In this document: positions 5,555 to 36,458 of the stretch, piece by piece
Layout of the letters: each line of letters starts with the position of its first letter
Position numbering within the stretch: position 1 is the first letter of the stretch
From: Rhodobiaceae bacterium
GTDB lineage: Bacteria; Pseudomonadota; Alphaproteobacteria; RS24
Length of the DNA stretch: 41,925 bases
Direction of reading: 5' to 3'
NCBI GenBank assembly: GCA_018660505.1
Contig: JABJKE010000015.1
Location: 1 to 41,925 of the forward strand
Translations under genes and position numbers: made by a program
The notes under the pieces: model-generated
The model's database searches: none
What the model saw: only the letters and a program-made list of their open reading frames with translations
Told to the model about the DNA's origin: nothing

Positions 5555-8500
5555 TGTTGCGCCCGTCGATTGAGCTGTTCTCGCGCCATCGCAATGCGGC
5601 GAATCTTTTGTTTTTCGCGATGATTATGTTGGGCTTTTTTGGCCTGAGCAATCTCAACGTGCAGTTTTTCCCGACCACCGATATTAAAACCGTCACGATT
5701 ACCGTGCCTTGGCCGGGCGCCTCGGCGCAGGATATCGATAAAAATATCGTGGCCACCATTCAGCCCGAAGTGCGGTTTATCGATGGGGTTAAAGAATTTT
5801 CGGCCGAATCGCGCCAAAGCGTTGCCGTCATGTCTATCGAGTTTAAACCCGATACAGACATTCAGCGGGCGGTGGCGGATGTGGAAGCGGCGGTCAATGC
5901 GATTGTCACTTTGCCAAAAGATTCGGAAAAGCCGCTGATTTCGCAAGAGACGTTTTTCGAAGCCGCGGTTTCCATTCTGGTGAGCGGCCCCTTCGAGGAG
6001 CGCGCGCTGCGGGCCTATGCCAAACAATTGCGCGATGGATTGTTGGATAAAGGCATCGATAAAATTACCCTCGAGGGGTTTCGCGCCGAAGAAATATGGA
6101 TAGAAGCCAAAGCCGAACAATTACGCCGCTATGATTTAACCCCGGCCGATATTGGCACGCGGGTGGCCAATTCATCGCTCGACGTGCCGGGCGGGGTTTT
6201 GCGCGGCGACGTCGAACGCCAAGTGCGCGCGGTTGGTCTGGCTTTAAGTGCGGAAGATGTGGGCAATATTGCGGTGCGCAGCACGCCCGAAGGCCGACAA
6301 ATAAAAGTGCAAGATGTGGCGCGCGTTACCGATACTTTCGATGCCGATGGCGCCGAAGGGTGGTCGGGCCAAAACCGCGCCATTCGCCTGACCGTGCAGC
6401 GCAGTAAAAATGCCGATGCCTTAAAAATTACCAAAACTGTGCGCGACTATATCGCCGAAGTCGAAAGTTCCTTGCCGCCGACTTTGGAGATTAAAGTTTT
6501 TGATGTGAACGCCGATAAAATTATTCAGCGCATCAATGTGCTGTTGTTCAATGGCGTCACCGGCATGGTGCTGGTTTTGGGCATCTTGTTTTTGTTTTTA
6601 AATGGGCGCATCGCCTTTTGGGTCGCGGCGGGCATTCCCGCCTCGCTGATGGCGACTTTCGGCGTGATGTTCTATCTCGATATGACGATTAATATGTTGT
6701 CTTTATTCGCGCTGATTATGACCATTGGCATTATTGTCGATGATGCGATTGTGGTGGGCGAACATTCCTCCACGCTCATCGAGCAGGGCGCGGGGGCGCA
6801 AGAAGCCGCCGAGGGTGGCGCCATTCGCATGGCCTTGCCGATTACGGCGGCGGCTTTAACCACGCTGGCCGCTTTCATACCAGTGCTGCTTATCGAAGGC
6901 GTGTTGGGACAATTTGTGCGCGCCATTCCTTTGGTGGTTTTGAGCGTGCTCATTGCTTCTTTGATTGAATGTTTTCTGGTTTTGCCAGGTCATTTAAGCC
7001 ACGCCTTGGTGAAGCCGCCCCGCCCGCCCCGCGGGTTGCGCAAACGGTTTTTGGATGGGTTTGATAATTTCCGCGACGGTCGGTTCCGCCGCTTTGTCGC
7101 TGCCGCTTATGACCGGCGCTATACCACGGCCTCGGTTGGCCTGACGGTGTTGGTCATTTGCATCGGCCTCTTGGCCGGCGGGCGTGTGCCGTTTCGGTTT
7201 TTCCCGTCGCCAGAGGGTGAAGTGGTCAATGCTTATGTGTTTTTTCAGCCCGGCACCAAGCGCGCCCAAACGGAAGCGGGAACGCGGCGCATCGAACAGG
7301 CTCTCTTTGAGGCCGAAAAAAATCTGCTCGGCGCGCAAGCCGCGACCGGCGAGAATTTGGTCAGCGTGGTGTTTACCCAAATCGGCCGCACCCGCACCGC
7401 CTTTGGCGACGAGCGTGCCTTGGTCTATGCCGAGCTGACCGCCAGTGAAGCGCGCGAGGTGCGCACGCGCGATATTGTGAAAGAATGGGAAAAGCGTATT
7501 CCCGATATCGCGGGCTTGCGGTACGTCTTCGTGCGCGAACGCCGCGGCGGCCCGCCCGGGCGCGATATCGATATTCGATTGCAAGATGGTGATCCCGATA
7601 CATTGAAACTGGCGGCCATGGAAGTGCGCCATGCGCTCGAGCAATATGCGGGCATCAGCCGCGCGCGCGATGACTTATTTTACAACAAGCAAGAGCTATT
7701 GTTAGAAGTGAACGGACGCGGCCAAGCGCTTGGGTTTACCAATCAGATTGTCGGTAGTTCAACGCGCAGCACCCTGCAAGGGGTAATTGCCAAACGGTTT
7801 GCCCGCGGCGATGAAGAAGTGACCATTCGCGTGTTGCAACCCAGAGATGGCACCAGCCCGAAACAGCTTGGCGATATTGACTTGCCCGTGCCGGGCACCA
7901 ATCCGGTGCGCTATGTGCCGCTAGATGCGGTGGTCGATATTGTCGAGAAACCGGGGTTTGCTTCTATCCGGCGCTCCGATGGCAAAGTTACCGTGAAAGT
8001 GGTCGCCGATTATGACGATACCGCGGGCAACCCAAATGATGTGTTGAGCGATATGGCGAAAACCGTGCTGCCGCAGATTGCTGCCAAATATAATATCGAC
8101 TTTAGTTTTGGCGGCCGCAGCGAAGAGCAGGCGGAAACGCTGGGCTCCTTGCGGGCCGGCGCTTTCATCGGCCTGTCGATGATTTATGTTGTCTTGGCCT
8201 TTGTCTTTGCCAGCTATTCGCGCCCGATTATTATTATGACGGTTATTCCCTTTGGGCTGGTCGGCATGGTGCTTGGCCATTATGTGCAAGGGTTCGATTT
8301 AACCTTCCTCAGCATGGTTGGGCTTTTGGGGCTGTCGGGCATTTTGGTGAATAATTCGATTATTCTGATTAGCCGCATTGAAGAGCGACGAGACCAGGGC
8401 GAAGCCCTTCGCGAGGCCGTCATCAATGGCATTTGCGACCGCTTCCGTGCGGTCACCTTAACGTCGCTGACCACGGTTCTGGGCCTTGCGCCTCTATTGT

Positions 8501-8685
8501 TTGAGACCAGCGTGCAGGCACAATTCCTCTTGCCGATGGTGATTACCATTGCTTGGGGCTTGGCCTTTGCCTCGCTTATCGTGCTGTTTCTCGTGCCGAG
8601 TGTTTTGGGCATGCAGGAAGATTTTCGCGCCCTTATGCTGCGTCGGCGCGCCAAGCGCATGGGGCTTGCCCAAGCCGGTGAGTAA
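5554..8685 (+). CDS. RND family efflux transporter permease (AcrB/HAE1-like)
   Basis: This is an inner-membrane proton-driven exporter. The 1043 residues match the family. The N-terminal FSRHRNAANLLFF segment, the first periplasmic porter domain beginning with VTITVPWPGASAQDID, and TM4 with the proton-relay aspartates in GIIVDDAIVVGE are all clear. The second half repeats the plan, with GLSGILVNNSIILISRIEERRDQG around TM10 and a final hydrophobic pair ending in VLFLVPSVLGM. It is more like the broad efflux group than the metal-exporting CusA group, since no methionine-rich relay is apparent. It is coupled to the adaptor by TAATG and faces trkH convergently with only 5 bp between them; no terminator hairpin is visible in that gap. 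Confidence 0.92.
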   Translation: MLRPSIELFSRHRNAANLLFFAMIMLGFFGLSNLNVQFFPTTDIKTVTITVPWPGASAQDIDKNIVATIQPEVRFIDGVKEFSAESRQSVAVMSIEFKPDTDIQRAVADVEAAVNAIVTLPKDSEKPLISQETFFEAAVSILVSGPFEERALRAYAKQLRDGLLDKGIDKITLEGFRAEEIWIEAKAEQLRRYDLTPADIGTRVANSSLDVPGGVLRGDVERQVRAVGLALSAEDVGNIAVRSTPEGRQIKVQDVARVTDTFDADGAEGWSGQNRAIRLTVQRSKNADALKITKTVRDYIAEVESSLPPTLEIKVFDVNADKIIQRINVLLFNGVTGMVLVLGILFLFLNGRIAFWVAAGIPASLMATFGVMFYLDMTINMLSLFALIMTIGIIVDDAIVVGEHSSTLIEQGAGAQEAAEGGAIRMALPITAAALTTLAAFIPVLLIEGVLGQFVRAIPLVVLSVLIASLIECFLVLPGHLSHALVKPPRPPRGLRKRFLDGFDNFRDGRFRRFVAAAYDRRYTTASVGLTVLVICIGLLAGGRVPFRFFPSPEGEVVNAYVFFQPGTKRAQTEAGTRRIEQALFEAEKNLLGAQAATGENLVSVVFTQIGRTRTAFGDERALVYAELTASEAREVRTRDIVKEWEKRIPDIAGLRYVFVRERRGGPPGRDIDIRLQDGDPDTLKLAAMEVRHALEQYAGISRARDDLFYNKQELLLEVNGRGQALGFTNQIVGSSTRSTLQGVIAKRFARGDEEVTIRVLQPRDGTSPKQLGDIDLPVPGTNPVRYVPLDAVVDIVEKPGFASIRRSDGKVTVKVVADYDDTAGNPNDVLSDMAKTVLPQIAAKYNIDFSFGGRSEEQAETLGSLRAGAFIGLSMIYVVLAFVFASYSRPIIIMTVIPFGLVGMVLGHYVQGFDLTFLSMVGLLGLSGILVNNSIILISRIEERRDQGEALREAVINGICDRFRAVTLTSLTTVLGLAPLLFETSVQAQFLLPMVITIAWGLAFASLIVLFLVPSVLGMQEDFRALMLRRRAKRMGLAQAGE

Positions 8686-8690
8686 TAGCC

Positions 8691-10136
8691 CTAGCGACGC
8701 CAGAAGCTGGGCACGAACATAACTAAAATGGTTAGAAATTCGAGCCGTCCGAGCAACATGCCAAAGCTCAACACCCATTTGGCACTATCGGGCAGGCCGG
8801 CATAAGTCCCCGTGGGGCCAATCTCTGGGCCCAATCCGGGCCCCACATTGGCGATGGCAGCCGCCGAGGCCGATAGGGCGGTCAACGGGTCGAGCCCCAT
8901 CAGGCTCAAGGCGATGGCGATGGCCGAGAACGATAGAATGAAAATCAGAACAAAAGCGACGACGGAATTGGCCACTTCATCGCCGAGCGGGCGGCCATTA
9001 TAGCGGATGACAAAAACCCCATTGGGCAGCGTCAATTGGCGAATATAGCGCCAACCCGCTTTGATGATGACTTGCAGGCGAAAGATTTTTAACCCGCAAG
9101 ACGTTGAGCCCGCGCAACCGCCGATGAAGGTAAGAATGAAAAACAGCGCAATCGCGAACGGCCCCCATTCGCCATAATCTGTGGTGACATAACCCGTGCC
9201 AGTTAAAATAGAAGTGGTGTTAAAGGCTGCCGATAGCAGGGCCGACGTGCCAATTTCCACGCCTTGGCTGAGTTGATAGCCCCACATGGCCAAAGTGGCG
9301 CACAAGGCGATGGCCAAGAAAGTGCGGATTTGCGCGTCTTGCACAAATTTATCGAACTTGCGGTTGACCAATTGCAAATAGGCGACAAAGGGCAGCGAGG
9401 AGGCCAGCATAAACACCACGGCGACGACGGATACCGATGGCGAAAACGCGGCGAAACTCTCGTTATGGGTGGAGAAACCGCCGGTGGCGATGGTGGTCAT
9501 CGCATGGGCGATGGCATCGAAAACACTCATGCCCGCCAAAATATAGGCGGTGACACAAAACAGCGTAATGGCAAAATAAAGCCGCGTAATCGAGCCGGCG
9601 ATTTGCGCCGTGCGCGGCAAAATCTTCTCCGAAGTGTCCGAGCTTTCCAGACGGAACAATTGCATGCCCCCGACATTGAGCATCGGCAAAACCGATATCG
9701 CCATCACAATAATGCCAATACCGCCAAACCATTGCAGCAAGGCGCGCCATAATAAAATGCCTGGCGGCGCGTCTTCCAAATTGGTGATAATCGTGGCTCC
9801 GGTTGTGGTCAGGCCCGACATGGCTTCAAAAAACGCATCCGTATAGCTCAGGTCTAAATCGCCAAAAGCAAAAGGCAGAGCCGCAAAGCCGGTCAGCCCC
9901 AACCACGAGAGGCTGGTCAGCAAAAACGCCTGTTTGACCGAAAGCGGCGGCAGCGTGCCGCGATTGGTGAGAATGAGCGCGCCAGAAATAAATCCGGTGA
10001 CCAAAGCGCTGGCCACAAAAACTTGCCAGCCAGCGTGTCCGCTTGCGGCATCCGCCAAAGCTGGCAATATCATGCCCAAGGCGACCGCAGAGAGCAGCAG
10101 GCCGAGAATGAAAAATATGGTTCGATTGTCGCGCAT
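8691..10136 (-). CDS. trkH: Potassium uptake protein TrkH
   Basis: TrkH is the membrane subunit of a K+ uptake system that normally works with the NAD-binding regulator TrkA (not in this window). Its 481 residues fit the family. Four pore repeats can be followed: EAMSGLTTTGATI, the MTTIATGGFSTHN loop, LLSAAFNTTSILTGTGYVTTDY and the last repeat around AAIANVGPGLGPEIGPTG. The glycines of the selectivity filter are in TTTGAT, IATGGFS, TGTGYV and NVGPG. GCAGSTSCGLKIFR is a family hallmark. It starts 3 bp after the apaG stop, so metZ, apaG and trkH are likely co-transcribed. Confidence 0.93.
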   Translation of the reverse strand: MRDNRTIFFILGLLLSAVALGMILPALADAASGHAGWQVFVASALVTGFISGALILTNRGTLPPLSVKQAFLLTSLSWLGLTGFAALPFAFGDLDLSYTDAFFEAMSGLTTTGATIITNLEDAPPGILLWRALLQWFGGIGIIVMAISVLPMLNVGGMQLFRLESSDTSEKILPRTAQIAGSITRLYFAITLFCVTAYILAGMSVFDAIAHAMTTIATGGFSTHNESFAAFSPSVSVVAVVFMLASSLPFVAYLQLVNRKFDKFVQDAQIRTFLAIALCATLAMWGYQLSQGVEIGTSALLSAAFNTTSILTGTGYVTTDYGEWGPFAIALFFILTFIGGCAGSTSCGLKIFRLQVIIKAGWRYIRQLTLPNGVFVIRYNGRPLGDEVANSVVAFVLIFILSFSAIAIALSLMGLDPLTALSASAAAIANVGPGLGPEIGPTGTYAGLPDSAKWVLSFGMLLGRLEFLTILVMFVPSFWRR

Positions 10137-13172: not shown

Positions 13173-13556
13173 ATGCAGATTATCCTTGGGATTGCCTGGC
13201 TTTGCCTCAGCCTTCTGGCGGGGGAAGCGGTGAAAGATATCGCGCAGCTGGCGATTCCGGCACCGGTTTTGGCGGTGGTTATATTGGTCGCTGTGCTGGG
13301 CCTCTATGGCCGCGTGCCAGAGGGGTTGCGTCTGGTGGCAGAGTTTTTACTGCGCCATATGGCCCTGTTTTTCATTCCGGTTCTCGTGGGCATGCTGGCT
13401 CTGTCGGAAAGGCTCGGCGAGATTTTACTGCCTTTGAGCCTCATCCTTATTGTCTCGACCGTGGTGCCTTTGTTGGTCACGGCGTGGATTTTTCAAAAAC
13501 TGGCGCCGCCGATGGATGCCGCGAAGCCGGAGGAGCCCAAGCATGAGGCTGACTGA
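13173..13556 (+). CDS. CidA/LrgA family membrane protein
   Basis: A 127-residue protein with four predicted membrane segments, starting 1 bp after the dcd stop. The blocks PAPVLAVVILVAVL and ALFFIPVLVGMLAL are typical of LrgA/CidA. In staphylococci this family is compared with phage holins and linked to murein hydrolase control and cell death; in Gram-negative bacteria a role in small organic acid or glycolate transport with LrgB has been proposed. The C-terminal tail is charged and overlaps the start of the lrgB-like gene by 14 bp, so the two are made together. Confidence 0.85.
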   Translation: MQIILGIAWLCLSLLAGEAVKDIAQLAIPAPVLAVVILVAVLGLYGRVPEGLRLVAEFLLRHMALFFIPVLVGMLALSERLGEILLPLSLILIVSTVVPLLVTAWIFQKLAPPMDAAKPEEPKHEAD

Positions 13557-14247
13557 GCTCCCCGCCTGGCCGGGCCTTGAAGGCCTGTTTTGGCTTTTGC
13601 TGACGCTGGCGCTTTATCGCGGCCTATCGATACTGCGGGCGCGCCTGCAAGAAACCGCTTGGGCGCAGCCGTTAATCTGGGGCGCGATTATCCTTTGTGC
13701 CCTATTGCTTGGGTTGGATATTGACTTGGCGCGCTATCAATTGGGCGGCGATTGGTTGATTTACACTCTGGCTTTATCGACGGTCTCCATCGGCGTGCCG
13801 ATTTACGACAATCGCCATGTTATTCGCGCCGCCGCCGTTCCCTTTGTAACGGCCATGGGTTTGGGCTCGGTGCTGGCGGCGGGCTCGGCTGTCGCGATGG
13901 CCGGCTGGCTAGATTTTGATGCGGCTTTGCGCGCCACTTTGGCCACCAAATCGATTACCTCGCCGATGGCCTTTGGCGTGGCCGATGAAATTGGCGGCCT
14001 GCCGGTTCTGGCCATGGGGGTGGTTATTGTCACGGGCAATTTCGGGGTTTTGGTCGCGCCGAAAATTTTTGCCACTTTTGGCCTCACAGACGAGCGCGCA
14101 CAAGGCTTGGCGTTGGGCGTTGTCACCCATGGGATTGGCACGGCCGAAGCGGTGCGCCGCTCGGCCTTGATGGGCAGTTTTGCCGGGCTTGCGATGGGCG
14201 TCAACGGCGTGTTGACCAGCCTTATTTTGCCGTTTGTTTTTTTATAG
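13543..14247 (+). CDS. LrgB family membrane protein
   Basis: The partner of the preceding LrgA-like protein. From the ATG at 13543 it has 234 residues and about seven hydrophobic segments. Diagnostic blocks are LSTVSIGVPIYDN, LATKSITSPMAFGVADEIGG and GVVTHGIGTAEAVRRS. The start has GGAGGAG about 8 nt upstream and lies inside the lrgA-like gene; the longer open frame from 13450 is only a shadow. The 3' end overlaps the convergent glycosyltransferase gene by 26 bp. Plant and bacterial relatives export glycolate or similar acids, but here the function is not proven. Confidence 0.87.
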   Translation: MRLTELPAWPGLEGLFWLLLTLALYRGLSILRARLQETAWAQPLIWGAIILCALLLGLDIDLARYQLGGDWLIYTLALSTVSIGVPIYDNRHVIRAAAVPFVTAMGLGSVLAAGSAVAMAGWLDFDAALRATLATKSITSPMAFGVADEIGGLPVLAMGVVIVTGNFGVLVAPKIFATFGLTDERAQGLALGVVTHGIGTAEAVRRSALMGSFAGLAMGVNGVLTSLILPFVFL

Positions 14248-19152: not shown

Positions 19153-20216
19153 GTATCTATCGCGCCCTTCGCCCGCTGCTTTTCACGCTGCCCCCGGAAG
19201 CGGCGCATAAAATTACCTTGCGCGGTTTGCGCGTTTTGTCGAAATTTGGCCGCCCGAAACCAGACAGCCCCCGCCTGTCGCAAACGCTCATGGGGCTGGC
19301 GTTTGACAATCCATTTGGCATGGCGGCGGGGTTTGATAAAGATGGCGAGGCTATTTCTGGCGTCCACCGCATTGGTTTTGGTTTCACCGAAATTGGCACG
19401 CTGACGCCTTTGCCACAAGCTGGCAATCCAGCGCCGCGCGTGTTCCGCTTGGTGCCGCAACAGGCGTTGATCAATCGATTGGGCTTTAACAATCGCGGCC
19501 AAGGGGACGCGCTGGCCAGATTAACGGCGTTTCGCCAGCAGCCTAAAAACGCGCGCGCCCGTATTATCGGTGTCAATATTGGCGCCAATAAACAGGCCCT
19601 CGACCGCATTGCTGATTATGAAACGGGCGCCAAACGGTTTGCCGATGTGGCGGATTATTTGACCGTCAATATTTCGTCTCCCAACACGCCGGGCTTGCGC
19701 GATTTGCAAGGCGGCGAAGCGGTTTTAGAGATTATGCAGCGGGTTCGCCAAGTGGCGCCCAAGACGCCGATTTTAGTTAAAATCGCGCCAGACCTCGCCA
19801 TCGAGCAGGCTTGCGAAGTGGCGCAATTGGCGCTCGACAATCAAATCGACGGGCTGATTATCTCCAATACCACACTGGCGCGCGATGGTGTTGCCGGGTC
19901 GCCCTATGCCAGCGAGGCGGGCGGGGTTTCCGGCCAACCGGTGTTTGATATGTCGACGCAAATGCTGCGCGACGTCTATGGCGCAACCGAGGGTAAATTG
20001 ACCCTCATCGGCGTTGGCGGCGTGGCGACGGCGGCGCAGGCCTATGCCAAAATACGCGCGGGCGCCAGCCTTGTGCAATTATATACGGGTCTGGTTTACC
20101 AAGGGCCGGGCTTGGTGGGGCGCATGAAACGCGATATCGACAGGCAGCTCCAGGCCGATGGCTTCGAACGGATTTCTGACGCCATTGGAGCCGATTATAG
20201 AGAACACCAGAAATAG
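19149..20216 (+). CDS. pyrD: Dihydroorotate dehydrogenase (quinone), class 2
   Basis: It oxidises dihydroorotate to orotate in pyrimidine synthesis and passes electrons to membrane quinones through FMN. The 355 residues from the ATG at 19149 begin with the short membrane-binding helical part (MSIYRALRPLLFTLPPEAAH) that marks class 2. Then come NPFGMAAGFDKDGE, RLGFNNRG, the SSPNTPGLRDLQ block with the catalytic serine, VKIAPDL and the FMN-binding GVGGV near the C-terminus. The start lies within the DUF952 stop. Confidence 0.95.
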   Translation: MSIYRALRPLLFTLPPEAAHKITLRGLRVLSKFGRPKPDSPRLSQTLMGLAFDNPFGMAAGFDKDGEAISGVHRIGFGFTEIGTLTPLPQAGNPAPRVFRLVPQQALINRLGFNNRGQGDALARLTAFRQQPKNARARIIGVNIGANKQALDRIADYETGAKRFADVADYLTVNISSPNTPGLRDLQGGEAVLEIMQRVRQVAPKTPILVKIAPDLAIEQACEVAQLALDNQIDGLIISNTTLARDGVAGSPYASEAGGVSGQPVFDMSTQMLRDVYGATEGKLTLIGVGGVATAAQAYAKIRAGASLVQLYTGLVYQGPGLVGRMKRDIDRQLQADGFERISDAIGADYREHQK

Positions 20217-23634: not shown

Positions 23635-24414
23635 TTATCGACGCCTAAAAATAATCGCCACAGCCCAGCCCATAAACACCGCGACCGCCACGCCAAAAAT
23701 CCCGTAGAGGAGTGACATATTATAGGCCGCCTCGTGCAAAATATGTCCGGCCCCGACGATATCTACCGGCAGCTCGCCTTTTTGATAGCCGATGAGCGTG
23801 CCTTTTTGGAAAGCAAAAAATTCGGTCGTATAAGCCCCCACGGGCATGCCGGCGGGCAGGTTAATCTCGGCGCGGAATAATTTTCCGTGAATAATCTCCA
23901 CCGCATCGCTTTGGGCGGCGAATAAATCGGCTTGTTGTTTCAAGCGCAAGAAAGCCGCGACCGCCTCGCTTTCGCCTGGCGTGGGGTGTGGCGTTTTAGG
24001 GTCGAGGTTGCTGGCTTTGAGCACATCGGCGCCAATGCCCAGTTCCGCGCGTCGGGCATTGGGCAGCAAATCGGCGATGGGGCGCGAGCTGGCGACGGCA
24101 TAAAAACTAGGCAAATCGCCAAATGTATAGGCGGGGCCATTGACCCATATTCCGAATTGTTTGTTTTTCTTGCGCAAAATTATATCCTGAGCGGGGCCGC
24201 GCAAGACCACCACCACGCCATCGGCCTCGCCATAAGGCTGGGTGTCAATGGCGCCGAACAATAATAAAGTCTCGCCGCTGTAATTCGAGCGGATGGAAAT
24301 CTGGTCTTTCGAGACGTCGGTTACCAAGACGTTTTGAAACTCAGTAGCAAGGGCAGGGCGGCTCACGAGAAGCGGCATAAGCACCAGCAGAGCGGCTAGA
24401 GTAAATCGCATCAT
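23635..24414 (-). CDS. TIGR02186 family exported membrane-anchored protein
   Basis: About 259 residues from the ATG at 24414; the frame stays open far upstream inside the exporter gene but the signal peptide fixes the start. Residues 1-24 form a signal sequence ending in ALA. The body is a periplasmic beta-rich domain (SIRSNYSGETLLLFGAID, VVVVLRGPAQDIILRKKNK), and a C-terminal helix (LLYGIFGVAVAVFMGWAVAIIF) anchors it, followed by RRR. The family is regularly found next to TauE/SafE exporters and is presumed to help them. The exporter stop overlaps the start (ATGATGA). Confidence 0.85.
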   Translation of the reverse strand: MMRFTLAALLVLMPLLVSRPALATEFQNVLVTDVSKDQISIRSNYSGETLLLFGAIDTQPYGEADGVVVVLRGPAQDIILRKKNKQFGIWVNGPAYTFGDLPSFYAVASSRPIADLLPNARRAELGIGADVLKASNLDPKTPHPTPGESEAVAAFLRLKQQADLFAAQSDAVEIIHGKLFRAEINLPAGMPVGAYTTEFFAFQKGTLIGYQKGELPVDIVGAGHILHEAAYNMSLLYGIFGVAVAVFMGWAVAIIFRRR

Positions 24415-30617: not shown

Positions 30618-32609
30618 ATGTTTAGAGATACACCAATGGGCGATAGTGCGGTAGCAAACGGGGTCAAAGACCCATCAAAGGACGAGCCAAATAAAATGGA
30701 ACAAGAAGTGCTAAAAAATGAGGCCGCGAAAGCCGCCACCGCTCGTCGTGCCGAAGGTGGGAACACCAGCGAACCGCAGCTCGATTTCGATCGCCAAGAC
30801 CAAGCGGTACAATATGTTTCTCGCCCGCGCGTCAAAACCGACCCGTCGCGCGATGCGCTGCTGACGGCGTTTGGCAAAGCCACGCTGACCGACCGCTATT
30901 TAATGCCCGGCGAGACCTTTCAAGACCTTTTCGCACGTGTGGCGTCTTATTATGGCGATGATGAAGCGCATGCCCAGCGGCTTTATGATTACATCTCGAA
31001 ACTTTGGTTCATGCCAGCGACGCCCGTCCTCTCCAATGGCGGCACCGAGCGCGGCCTGCCCATCTCGTGCTTTTTGAACGAAGCCAATGATAGCCTCGGC
31101 GATATTGTGAATTTGTGGAACGAAAATGTGTGGCTCGCCTCGCGCGGCGGCGGCATTGGTTCCTATTGGGGCAATCTGCGCTCCATCGGCGAGAAAGTCG
31201 GCGAAAACGGCAAGACCTCTGGCATTGTGCCTTTCATTCGCGTGATGGACAGCCTGACTTTGGCCATTTCGCAAGGCTCGCTGCGTCGCGGCTCGGCGGC
31301 GGTTTATCTGCCGATTGACCATCCTGAGATTGAAGAATTTATCGAAATTCGTCGCCCGACGGGGGGTGACCCAAACCGCAAAGCCTTGAACTTGCACCAT
31401 GGGATTCTTATTTCGGATGCCTTTATGCGGGCCGTTGAAAATGATGAAGAATGGGCTTTGCGCAGCCCGAAAGACAATTCGGTGCAGGCGACATTGCAGG
31501 CGCGCGATTTGTGGATTCGTATGCTGACCGCCCGCATTGAAACGGGCGAGCCCTATATGATTTTCAAGGACACGGTGAACAACCTGCGTCCGGAGCAACA
31601 AAAATTGCTCAATCTGGAAATCAAAACCTCGAACCTATGTGCCGAGATTACGCTACCGACAGGGCGCGACCATTTGGGCAATGACCGCACAGCCGTTTGC
31701 TGCTTGTCGTCTCTGAACGCAGAGAATTTCAACGAGTGGAATAAAGAAGAGCAATTCATTCCCGATGTGATGCGCTTCCTCGACAATGTGTTGGAAGATT
31801 TCATCCAGCGCGCGCCAGACGATATGGCCAAAGCCAAATACGCCGCCCAACGCGAGCGCTCGGTGGGTCTGGGCGTCATGGGTTTCCACTCGTTCTTGCA
31901 AGCCAATATGATTCCATGGGAAAGCGTCATGGCGAAAGTGTGGAACAAACGCATTTTCACCCACATCAAAGAAGCCACCGATAAGGCTTCGGTTGATTTG
32001 GCCAATGAGCGCGGCCCTTGTTTGGATGCGGCCGAATGCGGTATCAATGAGCGCTTCTCGAATAAAACCGCGATTGCGCCGACCGCCTCTATCTCGATTA
32101 TTTGCGGCGGCACCAGCCCGGGCATTGAGCCGATTGCGGCCAATAGCTTTACCCATAAAACGCTGTCGGGTTCGTTCAACGTTCGCAATCGTCACCTCGA
32201 TAAAATGCTGAGCGAGAAGGGCCAGAACAATGATGATATTTGGTCATCGATTGTGACCTCTGGCGGCTCTGTGCAGCATTTGGATTTCCTCAGCGATGAC
32301 GAGAAATCGGTATTTAAAACCGCCTTTGAAATGGACCAGCGTTGGCTGATTGATTTGGCGGGCGATCGCGCGCAACTGATTGACCAAGCGCAATCGTTGA
32401 ATGTTTTCTTGCCGGCCAATATCCATAAAAAAGATTTGCATCAAGTGCATTATCAAGCGTGGAAAAAAGGCGTGAAGAGCCTGTATTACTGCCGTTCTCT
32501 GTCTATTCAGCGGGCTGAGAAAGACGGCGGCGACACCAAGGCGATGGAAGATGCCATGGTTAAAGTGGCCGAAGAAAACGAAATGGACGAGTGCCTCGCT
32601 TGCCAATAG
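30618..32609 (+). CDS. nrdA: Ribonucleoside-diphosphate reductase, alpha subunit (class I)
   Basis: The catalytic subunit that turns ribonucleotides into deoxyribonucleotides with the radical made by NrdB. It has 663 residues. The active cysteines lie in PISCFLN, NLCAEITLP and AVCCLSSLN; LRRGSAAVYLPIDHPEIEEFIEIRRPTG (spanning the middle) is typical; TASISIICGGTSPGIEP and the tyrosine pair region SLYYCRSLS follow; the tail DECLACQ holds the redox CxxC. The first 85 residues are low-complexity and show no ATP-cone (no VxKRDG pattern), so the usual dATP overall-activity switch seems missing. GAGAGA lies before the ATG. First gene of nrdAB. Confidence 0.95.
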   Translation: MFRDTPMGDSAVANGVKDPSKDEPNKMEQEVLKNEAAKAATARRAEGGNTSEPQLDFDRQDQAVQYVSRPRVKTDPSRDALLTAFGKATLTDRYLMPGETFQDLFARVASYYGDDEAHAQRLYDYISKLWFMPATPVLSNGGTERGLPISCFLNEANDSLGDIVNLWNENVWLASRGGGIGSYWGNLRSIGEKVGENGKTSGIVPFIRVMDSLTLAISQGSLRRGSAAVYLPIDHPEIEEFIEIRRPTGGDPNRKALNLHHGILISDAFMRAVENDEEWALRSPKDNSVQATLQARDLWIRMLTARIETGEPYMIFKDTVNNLRPEQQKLLNLEIKTSNLCAEITLPTGRDHLGNDRTAVCCLSSLNAENFNEWNKEEQFIPDVMRFLDNVLEDFIQRAPDDMAKAKYAAQRERSVGLGVMGFHSFLQANMIPWESVMAKVWNKRIFTHIKEATDKASVDLANERGPCLDAAECGINERFSNKTAIAPTASISIICGGTSPGIEPIAANSFTHKTLSGSFNVRNRHLDKMLSEKGQNNDDIWSSIVTSGGSVQHLDFLSDDEKSVFKTAFEMDQRWLIDLAGDRAQLIDQAQSLNVFLPANIHKKDLHQVHYQAWKKGVKSLYYCRSLSIQRAEKDGGDTKAMEDAMVKVAEENEMDECLACQ

Positions 32610-32706: not shown

Positions 32707-33666
32707 ATGTCTTTGCTAGAAGAACGCATCGCTTACAAACCTTTCCGCTATCCATGGGCCTATGATGCTTGGCTCACCCAGCAGCGCATCCACTGGTTGC
32801 CAGAAGAAGTGCCTTTGGCGGAAGACGTGAAAGATTGGCATAAGAAGCTAACCGGCGGCGAACGCAATTTGCTGACGCAGATTTTCCGTTTCTTTGTGCA
32901 AGCTGATGTGGAAGTGAACAATTGCTATATGAAGCATTATTCGCAAGTGTTTCAGCCGACCGAAGTGCAAATGATGCTGGCTGCTTTCTCGAATATGGAA
33001 ACCATTCATATCGCAGCTTATTCGCATTTGCTCGACACCATCGGGATGCCAGAAATTGAATATGAAGCCTTCATGAAATACGCCGAGATGAAGGATAAAT
33101 ACGACTATATGCAGGAATGGGGCGTAGAGACCAAAGAAGATATTGCCAAAACATTGGCCGTCTTTGGCGCTTTCACCGAGGGTCTGCAATTGTTCGCCAG
33201 TTTCGCGATTTTGATGAACTTCCCGCGCTTCAATAAAATGAAGGGCATGGGGCAAATCGTAACTTGGTCGGCGCGCGATGAGACATTGCACACCAATTCG
33301 ATTGTGAAATTGTTCAATACGTTCACGCAAGAAAATCCAGAAATCTGGAACGATGCGATGAAGCGCGATTTATATAAAGCGTGCGAAACGGTTGTTACCC
33401 ACGAAGATGCCTTTATCGATTTGGCTTTTGAGATGGGGGGCGTGGAAGGTCTGGAAGCGCAAGAAGTGAAGGATTACATTCGCTTTATCGGCAATCGTCG
33501 TCTGATGCAGCTGAACCTAGAGCCGCTTTACGACATTGAGAAAAATCCATTGCCGTGGATGGACGAGATGTTGAACGGTATTGAGCATATGAACTTCTTT
33601 GAAGGCCGGGCCACTGAATATGCCAAAGCCTCCACCGAGGGCACTTGGGATCAAGCTTTCGATTAG
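32707..33666 (+). CDS. nrdB: Ribonucleoside-diphosphate reductase, beta subunit (class I)
   Basis: The di-metal radical subunit of ribonucleotide reductase, 319 residues. Metal ligands can be followed as the acidic residue in VQADVEVNN, E and H in NMETIHIAAYSH, the glutamate in FTEGLQLFASF, and E and H in ARDETLHTN. The radical tyrosine is present at residue 105 (AAYSHL), so this is a tyrosyl-radical enzyme rather than a Tyr-less class Ic. No N-terminal ATP-cone. It lies 97 bp after nrdA with AAAGGG before the ATG, and a terminator follows. Confidence 0.95.
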   Translation: MSLLEERIAYKPFRYPWAYDAWLTQQRIHWLPEEVPLAEDVKDWHKKLTGGERNLLTQIFRFFVQADVEVNNCYMKHYSQVFQPTEVQMMLAAFSNMETIHIAAYSHLLDTIGMPEIEYEAFMKYAEMKDKYDYMQEWGVETKEDIAKTLAVFGAFTEGLQLFASFAILMNFPRFNKMKGMGQIVTWSARDETLHTNSIVKLFNTFTQENPEIWNDAMKRDLYKACETVVTHEDAFIDLAFEMGGVEGLEAQEVKDYIRFIGNRRLMQLNLEPLYDIEKNPLPWMDEMLNGIEHMNFFEGRATEYAKASTEGTWDQAFD

Positions 33667-33701: not shown

Positions 33702-33727
33702 AGGGGCGCTTCGGCGCCCCTTTTTTT
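33702..33727 (+). terminator. Intrinsic terminator after nrdB
   Basis: AGGGGCGC-TTCG-GCGCCCCT, an 8-bp perfect stem with a stable UUCG tetraloop, followed by six to seven T. Confidence 0.92.
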
Positions 33728-33783
33728 GAGCCTCATGAATTGCCAATTTGTCCCCGCGGCTTGGCGTCATTGTATAGTGGGGC

Positions 33784-34188
33784 ATGTTTTCTCTTTTGAC
33801 CAAACCCGCAGCCGAGCCGATAGAGGCGATTGGCAATGTGCTGGATGCTTTATTCACCTCGGATAAGGAGCGGCTAGACAAGAAGGCGGTTCTGGCGCGC
33901 ATTGCCTTGCAGCCAAGTTTGCTGCAGAGCGAAATCAATAAAGTGGAAGCGGGTCACAAAAGCATATTCGTGGCGGGCTGGCGTCCGTTCATCGGTTGGG
34001 TGTGCGGTGTCGCGTTGGCTTATAATTTCGTCTTCCGCGATCTTATGGTCTGGGCGCTGGCCCTCACCTATGCAGAAACCCCGCCACCGCCGCCGCTCCA
34101 CCTAGAGGTTCTCACCACAATTCTTTACGCTCTATTGGGTTTAGGCGGCATGCGCACATTCGAAAAACTGCAAGGCCGCGCCAAATAA
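33784..34188 (+). CDS. Three-transmembrane holin of the gene-transfer-agent type
   Basis: 134 residues. The diagnostic block is SIFVAGWRPFIGWVCGVALAY followed by a second hydrophobic segment (LMVWALALTYA) and the C-terminal LLGLGGMRTFEKLQG, the pattern of the family named holin of 3TMs for gene-transfer release. Such holins open the inner membrane so that an endolysin can release gene transfer agents or phages. Here no endolysin, spanin or capsid gene is near, so it stands alone between nrdB and tRNA-Thr. A -10-like TATAGT at 33773-33778 lies only 5 bp before the ATG (possible leaderless mRNA); GGGG could also serve as a ribosome site. Confidence 0.8.
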   Translation: MFSLLTKPAAEPIEAIGNVLDALFTSDKERLDKKAVLARIALQPSLLQSEINKVEAGHKSIFVAGWRPFIGWVCGVALAYNFVFRDLMVWALALTYAETPPPPPLHLEVLTTILYALLGLGGMRTFEKLQGRAK

Positions 34189-34351: not shown

Positions 34352-34426
<75 letters not shown>

Positions 34427-35041: not shown

Positions 35042-35194
35042 ATGAGCAAAGGTCAAAACCCTGCCGTGAAAAACCAAGCGCGTCAGCAAAAACTGGCGGC
35101 GGCTTTGCGCGCCAATCTGAAACGTCGCAAAGAAAGCCGTAAACAGGCCGACCAACCACAAGTGTCAGCCCCGAAGGATGCATCAGATGGATGA
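35042..35194 (+). CDS. Small basic protein upstream of murA
   Basis: 50 residues, too short for most gene callers. It is very basic and helical in the middle ([19 protein letters not shown]) with a flexible C-terminus. The start ATG has AAGAAG a few bases upstream. Similar KLAAALRxNLKRRK-like small proteins precede murA in other alphaproteobacteria as I remember them. It overlaps murA by 8 bp, suggesting coupled translation. The function is unknown; nucleic-acid or ribosome binding would fit the charge. Confidence 0.7.
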
Positions 35195-36458
35195 GATTAT
35201 CATTGAAGGCGGCGTGGCTTTGACCGGCGAGATTGCGATTTCGGGGTCTAAAAATGCCGTTCTGCCGCTGATGGTGGCAGGTCTTTTGAGCGCGGAAAAA
35301 TTGATTTTGCGCGGCACGCCGCGCCTTGCCGATACGCAAACGCTGGCCCGGGTTTTGCGCGAGCTGGGAGCCGAGGTCGAAGAATTTGGCCAGGGACCGG
35401 GCGAGGGGTTGAGTGTCCATACAAAAGATTTGAGCTGCACGCGCGCGCCCTATGAATTGGTCTCTAAAATGCGCGCGAGCTTTTGGGTCTTGGGCCCGCT
35501 GTTGGCGCGCGCCCACGAAGCCCAAGTCTCGCTGCCCGGCGGTTGCGCCATCGGCACTCGTCCGGTCGACCTCTACCTCAAAGGCCTCGAGGCCATGGGG
35601 GCGGAAATTGACGTGGCGAGCGGCTATGTCAATGCCACGGCCAAGGGTGGGCTCAAGGGCGCGCGGATCGATTTGCCCTTCGTCTCGGTCGGCGCCACCC
35701 ATGTATTGATGATGGCGGCAACCCTGGCCAAAGGCACGACGCTCATCACCAATGCCGCCACCGAGCCAGAAGTCGTCGATGTCGGCACCTGCCTGATGGC
35801 GATGGGCGCGAACATAGAAGGCCTGGGAACTCGAAATTTAACCATCACGGGCGTCGATAGATTATCGGGCGCTGAGCATAGCGTCTCGCGCGACCGCATT
35901 GAGGCGGGCGCCTTTGCCTTGGCCATCGCGGCCACCCATGGCGATGCGCGCCTGACGGGCATTCAAGAAGATGTCTTGGGCGCGCTGGCCCCTGCTATGC
36001 GCTTGGCGGGGTGCGAGCTGCACCAAGAAGCCGATGCTATGCGCATTATCGGCCCCAAGGGCCGCGCCATTGCCACGCCGGTGACAACCGAGCCTTACCC
36101 CGGATTTGCCACCGACTTGCAAGCCCCCTTCATGGGGCTGATGTGCGGGGCCGACGGCGTGTCGCGCATTCGCGAGACGATATTTGAAAATCGCTTCATG
36201 CATGTGCAAGAGCTGGTGCGCCTTGGCGCCGATATCACGCTGGAGGGCGACACGGCCATAGTGACGGGCGTCGCGCAATTGCAAGGTGCGCCTGTTATGG
36301 CGACGGATTTACGCGCCTCCGCGACTTTGGTGATTGCCGGGCTGATGGCCAAAGGCCAGACGCGTATCTCGCGGGTCTATCATCTCGACCGCGGCTATGA
36401 GCGGATTGAAGAAAAACTATCGGCGGCCGGCGCCCATATTTGGCGAGAGCGCGTTTAA
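35187..36458 (+). CDS. murA: UDP-N-acetylglucosamine 1-carboxyvinyltransferase
   Basis: The first committed enzyme of peptidoglycan synthesis: it moves enolpyruvate from PEP to UDP-GlcNAc. About 423 residues from the ATG at 35187 (MDEIIIEGG), which has GAAGG 9 nt upstream; an ATG at 35178 is the alternative. The substrate block [11 protein letters not shown] is at the N-terminus and the catalytic cysteine is C120 in [13 protein letters not shown], so the enzyme should be sensitive to fosfomycin as most MurA are. The 3' end overlaps the DUF2948 gene by 1 bp (TAATG). Confidence 0.96.

Follow-up and report, generated by a model that had tools for sequence, protein, structure and literature searches.

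A holin gene beside nrdAB in a Rhodobiaceae genome, its probable M15 partner and the scar of a gene transfer agent

The holin gene and its neighbourhood

The window, by which we mean the whole stretch of 41,925 nucleotides analysed, comes from a 1.77 Mb assembly (G000) that is 94% complete; its nearest relatives with a name are MAGs labelled PS1-clade, Rhodobiaceae or unassigned Alphaproteobacteria. On the forward strand nrdA (30618..32609) and nrdB (32707..33666) lie directly upstream of an open reading frame at 33784..34188 coding for 134 amino acids. Downstream are a tRNA-Thr (GGT) gene on the reverse strand (34352..34426) and murA on the forward strand (35178..36458). An earlier, sequence-only reading had proposed a holin of the gene transfer agent (GTA) type beside nrdAB, and both the family and the position are borne out.

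The product matches PF11351 (GTA_holin_3TM) with E 1.4e-14 and a score of 55.1 bits (cut-off 24.8), residues 13-120 aligning to positions 4-117 of the 123 in the profile. A PHROG search places it in phrog_3427, 'holin', with E 3.4e-29. The WRPFIGW block, earlier picked out as a mark of the family, is invariant across 14 aligned sequences that include the window's copy; three damaged family copies (G011, G014 and G024) were omitted from this alignment. The AlphaFold2 model, with mean pLDDT 68, displays two long helices (residues 66-95 and 107-129) after three short ones and is not clearly that of a protein with three membrane helices; it suggests two. Judged from its sequence, this is a real holin-family gene and it is intact.

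The PHROG scan of the window covered 39 of the 41 called ORFs, two being left out. The holin is the only lysis-named family among the 25 listed of 35 PHROG families, and neither an endolysin nor a GTA structural gene occurs among them, as the sequence-only reading had stated. The window contains a second holin-like pair, in which LrgB (PF04172, E 4.9e-57; 13450-14247, forward strand) stands behind a 127-residue membrane ORF (13173-13556, forward strand) that resembles LrgA/CidA, a name given from look and place alone.

Matches to PF11351 were obtained in 16 of the 28 genomes of the family, distributed over four genera, and in 10 of the 12 genomes of the genus; the match in G024 scores below the cut-off. 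In all 16, nrdB lies 5′ of the holin gene, with a GST gene intervening in some. The tRNA-Thr gene and murA were each seen downstream in nine of the 16; contigs stop early beyond the holin gene in G001, G008, G009 and G010, and genes other than murA follow it in G014 and G018.

Might this be a membrane protein of some other function, linked for example to nrdAB or murA, that merely resembles holins? The constant presence of nrdB and a model with two rather than three membrane helices would suit such a protein. Against this, murA is replaced in the two genomes just mentioned, relatives of the protein adjoin endolysins in phages and in chromosomes, and phrog_3427 is a lysis family. In addition, a terminator-like hairpin with a T run (33702..33727, forward strand) and an upstream element of the holin gene's own, conserved in relatives, lie between nrdB and the holin gene. 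The hairpin, one of three such sites in the region compared with a shuffle mean of 1.6 and so weak when taken alone, may separate the holin gene from the nrdAB transcript. We regard a non-lytic function as very improbable.

An M15 peptidase gene between ftsZ and lpxC

The sequence-only reading had described the holin as an orphan. With respect to an endolysin this does not hold, and the notion of a truly orphan holin was rejected, since G000 encodes an M15 peptidase. It has a single PF08291 gene (C36:19260-19583, E 7.1e-20; the gene extends from about 19248 to 19703), the product of which is a phrog_894 endolysin (E 9.4e-42), and the gene sits between ftsZ and lpxC. The same reading had allowed for the absence of a PF11351 match, or for a genome with neither GTA genes nor an endolysin; what was found is a PF11351 match and an endolysin gene. 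The GH108 profile has no match in G000.

PF08291 is present in 11 of the 12 genomes of the genus. In ten of these ftsZ and lpxC flank the gene on a single contig, and in G009 it adjoins a piece of lpxC. G006 lacks both the M15 and the holin genes, and G002 has the M15 gene without a holin match. Six holin-bearing family genomes of other genera have no PF08291 match, and the M15 enzyme is therefore not an obligate partner of the holin. The protein carries no obvious signal sequence, as judged by eye. The M15 gene is frameshifted in G001, and CTG replaces ATG in G004. The M15 protein is probably the partner enzyme of the holin.

Relatives in phages and in other chromosomes

Relatives of the holin number 220 confirmed, of which 80 were fetched, 14 of these from the window's family. 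In 19 of the 80 an M15 gene belonging to one cluster, two members of which were confirmed by Pfam, directly precedes the holin gene. These pairs occur in Emcibacter, Kordiimonas, Sphingomonadales and other Proteobacteria records, and the common non-phage neighbours (an AI-2E transporter, an AsmA-like protein and a helicase) point to a chromosomal setting for many of the loci. A conserved gene of about 200 codons precedes the pair in Emcibacter-type genomes (12 loci, including L089, L090 and L091), directly before the M15 or the holin gene; the one member inspected, a 211-residue Emcibacter protein encoded before M15, received no Pfam, PHROG or NCBIfam name.

In the Methylophilales phages Venkman EXVC282S and MEP301 a phrog_894 endolysin, the M15 protein, is encoded side by side with a holin of the same family, that of Venkman being phrog_3427. 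The two genes are adjacent in the phages, whereas in G000 they occupy two separate places on the chromosome. The phage relatives are 37-45% identical to the window's holin among the best 20 of 51 records. A profile built from the holin's own group misses the PF11351 holins that stand beside GH108, the family adjoining them, in G039 and G048, although the G039 copy matches phrog_3427. By this comparison the holin is nearer to holins of phages and of other bacterial chromosomes than to the GH108-adjacent ones of those two genomes. For the tree, 98 loci were entered against the holin profile and eight had no match; 84 of the 90 matching loci were retained, with L004, L065, L066, L088, L093 and L126 dropped as partial or duplicate. 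The family's holins fall in one group with support of 96/93, which also encloses a long-branch outsider, L080.

A pair beside tRNA-Thr (GGT) and murA is also seen in another family, in G054 (L304, G054:C1:540000-558000, 7756-8857). It consists of a distant holin and an M15 protein of a different subfamily from that of the window, in a genome without portal, capsid or GTA_TIM match. The shared chromosomal spot may reflect common descent or reuse of the site. Within the window's family, G013, of a genus in which no holin match was obtained, has a different M15 gene followed by a 205-residue ORF that is maybe another holin (L190, G013:C3:545000-560000, 7006-8015).

Two alternatives draw on these relatives. 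The holin gene could be left over from an ordinary prophage, unrelated to any GTA, that had inserted near tRNA-Thr. Transfer RNA genes are usual integration sites, the phage relatives listed reach 37-45% identity, and G054 holds another M15-holin pair at the same place. No other phage gene is seen at the locus among the PHROG matches listed, however, and an isolated insertion does not sit well with nrdB upstream in 16 genomes of four genera, the strong constraint on the holin, the single tree group or the motif that, in the genus, is common to the holin and GTA promoters (see below). A prophage origin is accordingly improbable.

The second alternative is a lysis pair of the host, independent of any GTA and serving programmed lysis or the release of enzymes, vesicles or DNA. 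The M15-holin pairs in seemingly chromosomal neighbourhoods of other Alphaproteobacteria speak for it, as does the G054 pair in a genome lacking portal, capsid and GTA_TIM matches. So does the result for GTA_TIM, which had no match in 20 genomes reached via related holin loci, 15 of them with an M15-holin pair and five reached via holin loci without M15 of the cluster (L082 was left out of 21 loci). GTA_TIM was the sole marker used there and is a narrow one, found in four of 61 genomes, so that none in 20 is weak evidence. We return to this alternative after considering selection.

The scar of a gene transfer agent

The sequence-only reading had suggested that a GTA lies elsewhere in the genome. 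The part of this that stands is an M15 endolysin gene and a GTA scar elsewhere; a whole GTA was rejected, as the profiles for Phage_portal (PF04860), Phage_capsid (PF05065) and GTA_TIM (PF13547) have no match in G000, an assembly that is, as noted, 94% complete. At about position 23,870 of G000:C2, g1 (108 residues) and about 44 residues of terL, the one trace of the terminase, portal and capsid genes that the reading had proposed to search for, are fused to the terminal portion of DUF2793, followed by a nitroreductase gene. The frame, read in translation, shifts after the DUF2793 junction.

The scar lies where GTA genes persist in the relatives G008, G012 and G015. In G008, a member of the same genus, the terL terminase gene is complete and a portal gene begins where the contig ends, and G012 has terminase (terL), portal, protease and capsid genes in GTA order; in both genomes the GTA genes adjoin the same ABC transporter and cysI. 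G015, which is 69% complete and has no holin match, keeps terL, with GTA_TIM on another contig. In G036, a member of another family, GTA genes occur near the same ABC transporter. The contigs of G008 (L240), G012 (L234) and G015 (L301) end inside or close to the GTA genes, and such contig breaks may hide GTA genes in MAG surveys.

Across the 28 family genomes the GTA site keeps genes in three, carries a scar in 13 and has no trace of a GTA in five; it meets contig ends in five and was not located in two. The trace-free sites comprise a clean junction in G006, G024 and G026, and no match in the stretch read in G017 and G027. Breakpoints of the scars vary, and differ even among the close relatives G000, G001 and G010. 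G010, listed as 100% complete in three contigs, has no match to Phage_portal, Phage_capsid, GTA_TIM or GH108.

Selection and the timing of loss

Pairwise dN/dS was calculated within four close subgroups at a synonymous difference below 0.6, a rule by which the holin pair G000-G010 was dropped. Holin values are 0.03-0.11 in seven close pairs (0.037 for G000-G001), near the 0.02-0.06 of lpxC. Among the genomes in these pairs, G000, G001, G003, G007, G010 and G019 carry scars at the GTA site, which is contig-limited in G004 and G016. The M15 gene, with the frameshifted G001 copy left out, evolves faster at 0.15-0.25.

Constraint on the holin close to that on lpxC, in scarred genomes as well, is what a host lysis pair would be expected to display. 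However, the GTA remnants are themselves constrained and free of stop codons (g1, G000-G001, 0.116; DUF2793, G001-G010, 0.107). Because these values are low, the GTA would appear to have been under selection for most of the divergence and its deletions to be recent. The losses were probably recent and separate, on this evidence, with nested deletions from one older loss a possible alternative. The signal in the holin may then predate them; since the remnants share it, the constraint does not establish a new function, and low dN/dS was rejected as proof of one. Also at odds with a host lysis pair are the faster evolution of M15, with its frameshift in G001 and altered start codon in G004, and the state of the holin in many GTA-free relatives, where it is broken or without a match. 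It is intact in two of the three GTA-bearing genomes, in six of the 13 scarred ones (one broken, six without match) and in none of the five trace-free ones (one broken). This trend fits decay after GTA loss, with the caution that numbers are small and MAGs incomplete. A host lysis pair independent of the GTA deserves consideration and is, on balance, rather unlikely.

Promoter layout and a candidate control element

In the genus the holin gene is preceded by TTATCCCCGC and a -10-like box, with some 36-38 nt between the first base of the element and the ATG. The window has the corresponding layout TTGTCCCCGC ... TATAGT-GGGGC-ATG. Here TTGTCCCCGC (33748..33757, forward strand) is the local version of the genus element TTATCCCCGC, or TATMCMCG, with one mismatch to the latter, and TATAGT (33773..33778, forward strand), read from the sequence and by comparison of layouts, is a possible -10 box that ends 5 nt short of the start codon. 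Its placement suggests that the holin mRNA is leaderless. A sigma-70 consensus scan found no promoter upstream of the holin gene. The sequence-only reading had suggested a check for CtrA or GafA-like control sites ahead of the gene. There is no support for the former, TTAA, which we take to be the CtrA half-site, being absent between nrdB and the holin gene. For the latter there is a candidate motif in common with the GTA promoter, of which the window's copy has the one mismatch.

TATMCMCG is rare, with 30 matches in 332 kb of genus fragments counting both strands, and no exact match in the window. It occurs upstream of the holin gene in nine of ten genus genomes tested, of M15 in six of ten and of g1 in five of six. 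Elsewhere there are 12 background matches in 664,014 positions. This background was drawn from fragments of genomes that are related, and two of the fragments share 1 kb. Within one genome a chance occurrence has a probability of about 0.001 for the holin gene, 0.001 for M15 and 0.005 for g1, for a motif derived from these same promoters, and the values cannot be multiplied across genomes because the genomes are kin. In G000 the holin promoter carries TGTCCCCG, one mismatch away, and the M15 and g1 copies are exact. The spacing is 35-37 nt before the holin and M15 starts and 125-162 nt before that of g1. The element is missing upstream of the holins of G016, G018 and G019, and in G002, which has no holin match, TATCCCCG nevertheless persists after nrdB.

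Upstream of the G000 M15 gene TTATCCCCGC itself is present, 36 nt from the ATG. The genome has ten sites for TTRTCCCCGC compared with ten for the reversed control, and the motif was rejected as the mark of a larger regulon; among the sites only those of the holin and M15 genes are followed by a -10-like box and an ATG in the 36-nt arrangement. The DnaA box consensus is TTATNCACA. TATMCMCG resembles it and is a possible control element. The GTA promoter here has TTGACA, followed in G000 by GCGCCCCGCTGG, which resembles the putative GafZ site of Caulobacter, GCGCCCG-CTGGCGC, given in the available text of PMC11150451.

A probably stranded lysis system

Taken together, these observations lead us to favour, at a probability of roughly 0.6, a phage-type lysis holin of an RcGTA-family GTA in the PS1-clade lineage, with its M15 enzyme encoded elsewhere, that was left stranded when the particle genes were recently deleted. 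On induction of the GTA, a DnaA-box-like element preceding the holin gene, the M15 gene and the GTA cluster would have let all three be activated together. Once the holin had opened the inner membrane, the M15 peptidase would reach and cut peptidoglycan and particles would be released. In G000 the particle genes between terL and DUF2793 have been deleted, which on this reading leaves both lysis genes stranded, each intact by sequence. The sequences themselves establish the family of the holin, the M15 gene, the scar, the synteny and, within the genus, the common motif; the activity of the holin, its pairing with M15, their joint control and the former release of particles are inferred from these.

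The known systems offer partial precedents. Within the available text of PMC9638019 and PMC3423380, the RcGTA lysis genes rcc00555 (endolysin) and rcc00556 (holin) lie away from the capsid cluster and GafA acts on both, in agreement with what the sequence-only reading had said of Rhodobacter. The former source, in the part available, gives GafA, the RcGTA activator, a DnaA-like DNA-binding domain, and has it bind upstream of g1 and act on rcc00555/6 (PMC9638019). The likeness is that in G000 too the holin and a cell-wall enzyme are coded away from the GTA site; the differences are that they occupy two separate loci, that the enzyme is M15, with GH108 absent, and that the GTA is gone. This comparison is by description, as the distance between holins was measured against G039 and G048 and not against the R. 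capsulatus proteins.

The available portion of PMC11150451 places the GafY site of the Caulobacter GTA a long way 5′ of its core promoter. The GafYZ system of Caulobacter crescentus is alike, as far as the accessible parts of the sources describe it, in that an activator element stands well ahead of the core promoter and accessory genes are found at other sites in the genome (PMC11150451, PMC13236601). The GafY site described there differs in sequence from TATMCMCG (PMC11150451), and lysis is by LypABC, the authors having found no holin-endolysin homologue according to the text available (PMC13236601).

A variant of the preferred reading is that the holin-M15 pair outlasts recurrent GTA loss as stand-alone altruistic lysis, cells bursting on the old GTA signal without producing particles. 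We consider this unlikely. Recurrent loss of GTAs in Alphaproteobacteria is known, and the source, in the part available, links it to cheating (PMC10883770).

Neither an M15-holin pair in GTA release nor GTA scars in the PS1 clade were found among the literature matches listed, which comprised titles and the starts of abstracts. By that measure three things are seemingly new: a holin and an M15 enzyme coded apart from each other, an element common to their promoters and that of the GTA, and a series of scarred genomes in which lysis genes survive. For GTAs outside Rhodobacter and Caulobacter they provide a candidate split lysis pair together with a candidate common control element. GTAs kill the cell that produces them, and how they come to be lost matters for the unsettled question of why they are maintained. 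Here is a clade in which particle-gene deletions with varied breakpoints occur beside relatives that keep the GTA, and in which the lysis genes range from intact to gone.
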